From NCBI GenBank assembly GCA_025060295.1, contig JANXCH010000023.1, positions 1 through 64,000 on the forward strand: a stretch of DNA of 64,000 bases. Reading direction: 5' to 3'. The number at the start of each line of letters is the position of its first letter. Position 1 is the stretch's first letter. The notes under the pieces were generated by a model. The model was given only the letters and a program-made list of their open reading frames with translations. It was not told the DNA's origin and ran no database searches. Origin of the DNA: Dehalococcoidia bacterium (GTDB taxonomy: Bacteria > Chloroflexota > Dehalococcoidia > Lucifugimonadales > HRBIN23). The position numbers and the translations under genes are program-made. Positions 10,834 to 14,399 of the stretch are shown piece by piece.

Positions 10834-10887
10834 GTAACAAAAGGGCAAAACCCCTGAAATCCCTGCGAAACACCCCCGAGGGATGCT
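10834..10887 (+). promoter_or_regulatory. Four-box GlnR-like operator and -10 element of amt-PII
   Basis: Four pentamers at exact 11-bp pitch: GTAAC (10834), GCAAA (10845), GAAAT (10856) and GAAAC (10867). They match the published actinobacterial GlnR pattern GTnAC-N6-GnAAC repeated twice. A -10-like GATGCT starts 11 nt after the last box (10882-10887), so the last two boxes would cover the -35 region. The amt ATG lies 36 nt further on. Confidence 0.72.
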
Positions 10888-10923
10888 ATTTGTGAAAAAC
10901 ATCCCAAGATGGGGGAGGGAGTT

Positions 10924-12559
<1,636 letters not shown>

Positions 12560-12578
12560 CAGACCCCTTCGGCGAGCG

Positions 12579-12606
12579 CTCCCCCCGCCTGTGCAGGCGG
12601 GGGGAG
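12579..12606 (+). terminator. GC-rich hairpin after the amt-PII operon
   Basis: A perfect 12-bp stem, CTCCCCCCGCCT pairing with AGGCGGGGGGAG, closes a 4-nt GTGC loop. Only a short run (GTGCTTTAGG) follows rather than a clear U-tract, so it may be a terminator or a transcript-stabilising/attenuating hairpin. It separates PII from the next operator. Confidence 0.5.
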
Positions 12607-12641
12607 GTGCTTTAGGAAGGGCGCTGGGGGGCGCAAGGGTT

Positions 12642-12695
12642 GTTACAGCCCTGTAGCACCCTGGTAACATTTGTGAAATATGGTGCGAGCATGCT
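12642..12695 (+). promoter_or_regulatory. Four-box GlnR-like operator and -10 element of the 31-aa gene
   Basis: Pentamers GTTAC (12642), GTAGC (12653), GTAAC (12664) and GAAAT (12675) are separated by exactly 6 nt each. CATGCT starts 11 nt after the last box (12690-12695), the same geometry as upstream of amt and glnA. A transcript start near 12702 would leave a leader of about 29 nt before the microprotein ATG. Confidence 0.72.
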
Positions 12696-12730
12696 GAGGG
12701 TGGTATCACACCTATCTCAAGGAGGCGCAG

Positions 12731-12826
12731 ATGTCTGTGGAGACGGTTGTCGGCCTGGTGAGTTTTCTGGGCATGGTGGGGCTGTGGGTGGCCCTGCCCA
12801 TTCGCCTGCGGCGTGCCCAGGGATAG
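12731..12826 (+). CDS. 31-residue single-pass membrane microprotein between PII and glnA
   Basis: ATG 12731 to TAG 12826 encodes MSVETVVGLVSFLG followed by a hydrophobic helix (about residues 6-24) ending in a positive Arg-rich tail (RLRRAQG). An AAGGAGG ribosome binding site sits 5 nt before the ATG. Its own four-box nitrogen operator lies upstream (12642-12679) and a second one directly follows its stop codon (12832), upstream of glnA. The positive-inside rule predicts a cytoplasmic C-terminus. It is too short for family recognition; possible roles are a small partner of Amt, GS membrane association, or a leader peptide linked to glnA expression. The strong SD, membrane-like composition and placement support a real gene, but no homolog could be checked. 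Confidence 0.6.
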   Translation: MSVETVVGLVSFLGMVGLWVALPIRLRRAQG

Positions 12827-12831
12827 GGCCC

Positions 12832-12885
12832 GTAACACGGCTGTAACTTTTCGGTAACACCCCTGAAACCTACAGGCGTTAGCCT
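12832..12885 (+). promoter_or_regulatory. Four-box GlnR-like operator and -10 element of glnA
   Basis: The best of the three arrays: GTAAC (12832), GTAAC (12843), GTAAC (12854) and GAAAC (12865), each separated by 6 nt. TAGCCT starts 11 nt after the last box (12880-12885). Start of transcription near 12892 would give a leader of about 23 nt before glnA. Confidence 0.75.
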
Positions 12886-12914: not shown

Positions 12915-14399
12915 ATGACGACCACAGTTGGTGCCGGCTCTCCCACGGGGCGGCGGCCCACAACCCCTGCCGAGGTGGTGCGCTTTGCGCGGGAGCGCGG
13001 GATCCAGATGGTGGATCTGAAGTTCTGCGACCTCCCCGGCACTATGCAACACCTCACTATCCCCGTGGAGGAACTGACGGAGAAACTGTTCACCGAGGGG
13101 ACGGGGTTCGACGGCTCCAGCATTCGGGGCTTCCAAGCCATCCACGAGAGCGACATGCTCCTGGTGCCGGATCCCACCACCGCTGCTATAGACCCCTTTT
13201 TCACCATTCCCACTCTCTCCCTCATCTGCAATGTGGTGGACCCCCACGGGGGCGGATGGAACCGCCCCACCCCTTACTCCCGCGACCCCAGGTATGTGGC
13301 CCAGAAGGCCGAAGCCTACCTGAAGCGCAGCGGCCTGGCCGACACCAGTTACTGGGGGCCGGAACTGGAGTTCTTCATCTTTGACAGCGTCCGCTTCGAC
13401 CAGAACGCCCACTCGGGCTTCTACGAGGTGCAGTCGGACGAGGGCATCTGGAACAGCGGGAAGGAGCGGGACCTGCGTGGCAACCTCAACCTGGCCTATC
13501 GCCCCCGCCACAAGGAGGGCTACTTCCCCGCTCCCCCCACCGATACTTTCCAAGACCTGCGTTCGGAGATCTCCTTGAAACTGGCGGGATTCGGCATCCA
13601 GGTGGAGAAGCACCACCACGAGGTGGCCACCGCCGGGCAGGGGGAGGTGGACTTCCGCTACGACACTCTGGTGCGCACTGCCGACAATGTGCTGGTCTAC
13701 AAGTACATCGTCAAGAATGTGGCACGCGCCCACGGGAAGGTGGCTACCTTTATGCCTAAGCCGTTGTTCGGAGACAACGGCTCGGGTATGCACACCCACC
13801 AGTCCCTCTGGCGCAACGGGGTCAACCTGTTCGCTGGGGAGGGGTATGCGGGCCTCTCCCAACTGGCCCTGTGGTATATTGGGGGCTTGCTGAAGCACGC
13901 CCCGGCGCTGCTAGCCATCTGCGCCCCCACCACCAACTCCTATCGCCGTTTGGTGCCCGGGTTCGAGGCCCCTGTCAACTTGGTCTATTCCATGCGCAAC
14001 CGCAGCGCTTGCGCCCGTATCCCCGTGTACTACGATAAGCCCGAGGCCAAGCGGGTGGAGTTCCGCTGTCCCGACCCCTCCTGCAACCCCTACCTGGCCT
14101 TCGCGGCGATGCTCATGGCGGGGCTGGACGGCATCCGCAATCGCATAGACCCGGGAGAGCCTGTGGATAAGGACATTTACGCCCTCCCGCCCGAGGAGGC
14201 GGCCAAGATTCGTCAGGTGCCCGGCAGCCTGGACGAGGCCATCAAGGCGCTGGAGGAGGACCACGAGTTCCTCCTGCAAGGTGGGGTGTTCACCGAGGAC
14301 CTGCTGGAGACCTGGATTCGCTACAAGCGGGAGAGGGAGATAGACCCGGTGCGCCTGCGCCCCCACCCGTACGAGTTCTTCCTGTATCTGGACGCCTAG
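12915..14399 (+). CDS. glnA: Glutamine synthetase, type I (first copy)
   Basis: 494 residues. It makes glutamine from glutamate, ammonia and ATP, acting as a dodecamer in the cytoplasm. Landmarks are [11 protein letters not shown] (about 58-68), the metal ligand region [38 protein letters not shown] (latch/His metal site), [13 protein letters not shown] (Glu flap) and the C-terminal [16 protein letters not shown]. The last is the segment that carries the adenylylated Tyr (397 in E. coli), and here the Tyr is kept, so GSI-beta-type covalent control is possible although no glnE is in the window. ATG 12915 follows AAGGAGAGG. Expression is probably nitrogen-controlled through the four-box array just upstream. 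Confidence 0.95.

Follow-up and report, generated by a model that had tools for sequence, protein, structure and literature searches.

The window analysed in this study is a 64-kb stretch of DNA, and its features discussed below belong to a nitrogen island with the gene order amt-PII-[sORF]-glnA1-glnA2-gltB (Table 1). The small open reading frame (ORF) of this island, for which Table 1 gives the positions from the ATG to the end of the stop codon, encodes a microprotein of 31 residues (MSVETVVGLVSFLGMVGLWVALPIRLRRAQG), a length that is short enough to escape gene finders. On both strands of the window, it is the sole ATG ORF of 20-50 amino acids that combines a Shine-Dalgarno (SD) sequence of at least 6 nt with a transmembrane-like segment. 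The Kyte-Doolittle hydropathy of the product, averaged over 19 residues, reaches a maximum of 2.25, and AlphaFold2 with the single sequence as input predicted one helix spanning residues 3-30 (mean pLDDT 93). An earlier note on this DNA had claimed a strong SD sequence with 5 nt spacing, a hydrophobic helix and a placement between two nitrogen operators in the amt-PII-glnA island, and all three are borne out by the features described here.

Table 1. Features of the window and loci of the fused long forms (positions without a locus prefix are those of the window)
Feature	Coordinates	Strand	Basis
Amt ammonium transporter, clade II, proposed partner	10909..12204	+	PF00909 search, Amt clades
PII signal protein	12218..12559	+	ORF similarity to PII; adjoins Amt in relatives
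Strong hairpin between PII gene and operator 1	12575..12611	+	-32.1 kcal/mol, z -4.5
Operator 1, GTTAC-n6-GTAGC-n6-GTAAC-n6-GAAAT, GlnR type, 5' of microprotein	12642..12679	+	pattern scan; kept in G001
Shine-Dalgarno AAGGAGG, 5-nt spacer to ATG	12719..12725	+	sequence; AAGGAGG in same place in G001
31-aa single-span membrane microprotein gene, clade II subtype of Amt-linked family	12731..12826	+	sequence, homologues, AlphaFold2
Operator 2, GTAAC-n6-GTAAC-n6-GTAAC-n6-GAAAC, between microprotein and glnA1	12832..12869	+	pattern scan; kept in G001
Glutamine synthetase GlnA1	12915..14399	+	
Fused form	L293:1501-2673		
Fused form, somewhat longer as read	L296:310-1677		
Fused form	L309:1486-2688		
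Fused form	L310:394-1599		
Fused form	L304:1486-2697		
Fused form	L308:1489-2703		
Fused form	L246:4105-5349		

When the window was scanned for the three-repeat pattern GTAAC-n6-GTAAC-n6-GTAAC with up to three mismatches, eight matches were obtained against 0.33 expected, and seven of them fall at operators 1 and 2 with their immediate flanks. Upstream of amt (10834-10871), a candidate degenerate operator of the same phase, GTAAC-n6-GCAAA-n6-GAAAT-n6-GAAAC, was read by eye. The hairpin between the PII gene and operator 1 has no U-run and was not called by a consensus terminator scan; at the same place after the PII gene, the genome G001 from the same genus has a hairpin of different sequence with a U-run. 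The hairpin of the window is probably the end of the amt-PII transcript, and since strong hairpins follow the PII gene in both genomes, the microprotein gene probably begins its own transcript at operator 1.

The earlier note had named beforehand the loss of the frame in close relatives as the observation that would speak against a gene. In G001 the frame is intact, again between PII and glnA1, with 81% amino-acid identity to the microprotein of the window, and the proposal is thus not refuted. At the DNA level, the ORF is 82% identical between the window and G001, compared with 49% for the 5' spacer and 68% for the 3' spacer, of which the operator is the best conserved portion. The differences in the ORF are distributed as 6, 2 and 9 over the first, second and third codon positions. 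The note had also called for a comparison of synonymous and nonsynonymous change, which gave a dN of 0.114, a dS of 0.511 and a dN/dS of 0.22 against G001; other close pairs behave similarly (for example, dN 0.053 and dS 0.75 for the microproteins of L132 and L133).

A very short ORF that sits between two operators might also be a chance ORF, a leader peptide or a piece of an RNA element, but we regard this as exceedingly improbable in view of the third-position bias and the dN/dS values well under 1 in several pairs. In addition, across 50 members of the family described below, P23 is invariant and F12 and W19 are each conserved in more than 90%, the family is found in varied surroundings and as fused forms, and the only Rfam match over the locus is a sub-threshold one to an animal microRNA, covering the hairpin. 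A chance ORF or an RNA element was therefore rejected on the codon pattern and the homologues. These data show that the microprotein gene is a selected protein-coding gene, and selection, homologues, operator statistics and hydropathy lend strong support to the view of the earlier note that it encodes a real, unannotated small membrane protein and has a nitrogen operator of its own.

A profile search retrieved 102 distinct members, mostly from Chloroflexota. Most have 27-60 residues, with the helix at the N-terminus and the core E-x7-[AS]F-x6-W-x3-P followed by a basic tail. With the profile at E 0.01, 28 of the 294 genomes of the class and 33 of the 301 of the phylum gave a match, a few of these matches being weak. 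Elsewhere the microprotein is rare: outside Chloroflexota, it was found in 1 of 246 genomes from the phylum of G646, in 11 of 43 from that of G654 and in 4 of an assorted set of 50, two of these four being labelled Chloroflexi or Anaerolineae. Tandem copies occur at L137, L151 and L160, and weak matches in genomes without Amt (L341, L342) have different surroundings. Clade f125 (L206-L228, L233, L234, L239), found in 18 genomes of one family, has a clear homologue and no operator; no Amt was found within the fetched stretch, and at two of the loci checked the homologue adjoins a D-serine-dehydratase-type gene. No known family in Pfam, NCBIfam or PDB matches the microprotein; when 28 members were compared with Pfam and NCBIfam, the best E value was 0.023 and the matches were scattered over unrelated families. 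Known one-helix subunits (KdpF, CydX/YbgT, FixQ and the like) were considered and rejected, as no curated family profile matched. The conservation of one side of the helix is suggestive only (p = 0.086, not significant). Judged from these sequence comparisons, the family is one of previously undescribed single-span microproteins.

To describe the regulation of the family, the 260 bases upstream of each member were scanned, and an operator was counted when no more than 2 of 60 shuffles reached its score. A three-repeat GlnR-type site, typically 75-120 bases before the start, was found for 45 of 100 members, that of the window included. Many members lacking the operator sit close behind Amt or PII and could share their transcript; others, clade f125 among them, are not explained in this way. 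The window genome encodes four OmpR-type regulators. The product of L352:1468-2187:- (G000:C13) has an atypical receiver, and its closest solved structures are 8hig, 8hih and 8hml, which we take to be GlnR, the structure table giving only the OmpR family. This GlnR-like regulator is likely to read the operators. The consensus of the actinobacterial GlnR is GTnAC-n6-GTnAC, in tandem at amtB and glnA (PMC3087709). The window genome thus resembles the GlnR regulon of Actinomycetota in the tandem GTnAC-n6-GTnAC repeats, the atypical OmpR-type regulator and the amtB and glnA targets (PMC3087709), but differs from it in its place in Chloroflexota and in having the microprotein as an extra, repeated target. 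A GlnD-type uridylyltransferase was not found in the window genome (95.7% complete) and is present in only 4 of 59 relatives. Since PII nonetheless retains the T-loop tyrosine, its control must work otherwise. There is no clear link of the microprotein to the absence of GlnD, as nearly all relatives are without it.

Among the 91 distinct members left after excluding clade f125, 77 have an Amt gene within 1.5 kb on the same strand, and the microprotein mostly lies 3' of it. Several of the other 14, which are without a near Amt, are on short contigs. The loci of the class and phylum had been fetched by way of the microprotein itself, so a fair test of linkage uses Amts found independently, and all PF00909 Amts in the 59 relatives served as the unbiased sample. 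In one of the relatives (L337:1997-3218, G029), an Amt gene is split into two frames (PF00909 1-182 and 180-399), the result of a frameshift or an assembly error. In this sample, 15 of 59 informative Amts are accompanied by the microprotein, and most Amts of the relatives occur without it. Mapped on the Amt tree, its presence requires 2 changes, whereas 500 shuffles required 13.5 on average and never fewer than 9.

The Amts with the microprotein form two clades, each with its own microprotein subtype. Those of clade I are approximately 35% identical to the window Amt, with the microprotein directly after or before Amt, and in clade II, which includes the window Amt, the usual order is Amt-PII-microprotein. 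Relatives with several Amts have the microprotein essentially only beside those of clades I and II, and G002, from the same family as the window genome, has neither Amt nor microprotein. In G030 (L146), the order is Amt-I, microprotein A, Amt-II, PII, microprotein B and GlnA2, and similar loci exist. In a test that left out whole families, the subtype sequence predicted the clade of the associated Amt correctly in 73 of 77 cases; of the four misses, one (L154) lies on a contig that stops before any clade I Amt is visible. The Amt clade and the species history are partly confounded, although several genomes contain both kinds of Amt. No Amt residue marked both partner clades at the thresholds used.

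Proteins of approximately 390-415 residues whose N-terminus is formed by the same helix occur in G639, G558 and the phylum of G654 (Table 1). Most of these fused proteins are encoded directly 3' of Amt, and the residues E, F, W, P and R of their helix are invariant. The remainder, of approximately 350 residues, gave no convincing match in Pfam or PDB. As the same helix carries this part, which would be cytosolic, in a second phylum, it is best read as a docking module, and the fused form suggests that a cytosolic part can be attached to the helix as a docking element. The existence of several copies, of subtypes matched to the type of Amt and of a long fused variant is beyond what a single sequence could offer.

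The suggestion of the earlier note that the microprotein tethers or modulates glutamine synthetase (GS), Amt or PII was too open. Its Amt part is the one favoured, because the microprotein follows two Amt clades regardless of whether PII or GS is close by and is absent next to other Amts encoded in the same genomes, and GS or PII has become the less favoured choice of main partner. The location between PII and glnA1 in the window, with glnA next at many loci, would suit a membrane tether or modulator of GS or PII, and of approximately nine more copies that have no Amt nearby despite good flanks, three adjoin GS or precede it or a GS operon (L140, L148, L240). Small proteins acting on GS or PII exist, for example sP26 of M. 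mazei and the cyanobacterial PirA. We consider such a role quite unlikely, however, because at L151, L238 and L249, where Amt and the microprotein are present, no PII or GS was recognised over 12-17 kb, because the presence of the microprotein tracks the Amt clade, and because GlnA1 is common in relatives that do not have it. The comparative data single out Amt, and the evidence thus points to Amt over GS as the probable partner.

The microprotein might instead be a general membrane peptide of nitrogen starvation, which makes no contact with Amt and owes its neighbourhood to a shared GlnR regulon. Members that retain the operator away from Amt (L235, L236, L340) are consistent with this, as are the exceptions to Amt linkage, above all clade f125. 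It is nevertheless unlikely, since a single genome may have the microprotein beside one Amt and lack it beside another, since the subtype corresponds to the Amt clade, and since the long fused form is likewise mostly behind Amt. Taken together, the linkage to Amt and the frequent nitrogen-control site of its own make it probable that the family is a component of ammonium uptake that has so far been overlooked.

We therefore return to Amt as the partner, and we infer that the microprotein is probably a nitrogen-induced, single-span subunit or modulator that binds specific Amt transporters. Clade f125 and the approximately nine well-flanked copies without Amt limit our confidence in this reading. 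According to the positive-inside rule, the N-terminus would be outside and the basic C-terminus cytosolic. Under nitrogen shortage, the GlnR-type regulator would switch on the microprotein together with amt and glnA, and the helix may then pack against the Amt trimer via the conserved E4, F12, W19 and P23. As a small accessory subunit or modulator, it might stabilise Amt, or adjust either how actively Amt transports or how PII closes it. To a broader reading, in which the family would be a hitherto unknown, Amt-type-specific transmembrane component of Amt-PII uptake and the long versions an Amt-anchored cytosolic arm for regulation or signalling, we give about even chances.

Few transporters have been studied as thoroughly as the Amt/Mep/Rh proteins, which are described as homotrimers under the control of soluble PII. 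If the Amt reading is true, a one-helix, nitrogen-controlled partner matched to Amt clades phylum-wide would be an added component of this textbook system and an additional layer of control in organisms without GlnD. It would also be a clear case of a conserved gene class concealed by length cut-offs, and the fused forms would point to an undescribed Amt-linked cytosolic module. Our search of the open-access literature turned up no publication describing a transmembrane partner of Amt, nor any describing a small protein associated with Amt in Chloroflexota.

Among known systems, sP36 of Methanosarcina mazei is a protein of 61 amino acids that is cytoplasmic under nitrogen limitation and moves to the membrane on ammonium upshift (PMC10714827); the binding of AmtB1 and GlnK1 is a trait of its family. 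Like the microprotein, sP36 is a small protein of nitrogen metabolism tied to Amt, and it is induced under nitrogen limitation; its carriers are without GlnD (PMC10714827), as is the window genome. In contrast to sP36, however, the microprotein has approximately half the length and a predicted permanent membrane helix (residues 3-30), and the microprotein-bearing G007 and G030 do have GlnD-type matches. Size and location speak against membership in the sP36 family, which is characterised by approximately 61 residues and a cytoplasmic location with movement to the membrane; the microprotein is a hydrophobic, mostly helical protein of 31 residues.

A review lists soluble PII proteins as the only small regulators of Amt (PMC10710835). 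We file the microprotein among the small membrane proteins that attend transporters. Like AcrZ on AcrB (PMC10710835) or KdpF, it consists of one short helix, which probably packs against a large transporter that it would modulate or stabilise, and its proposed action on Amt resembles that of AcrZ on AcrB. No sequence relation to these proteins was found in Pfam, and the transporter attended by the microprotein would, unlike theirs, be Amt.
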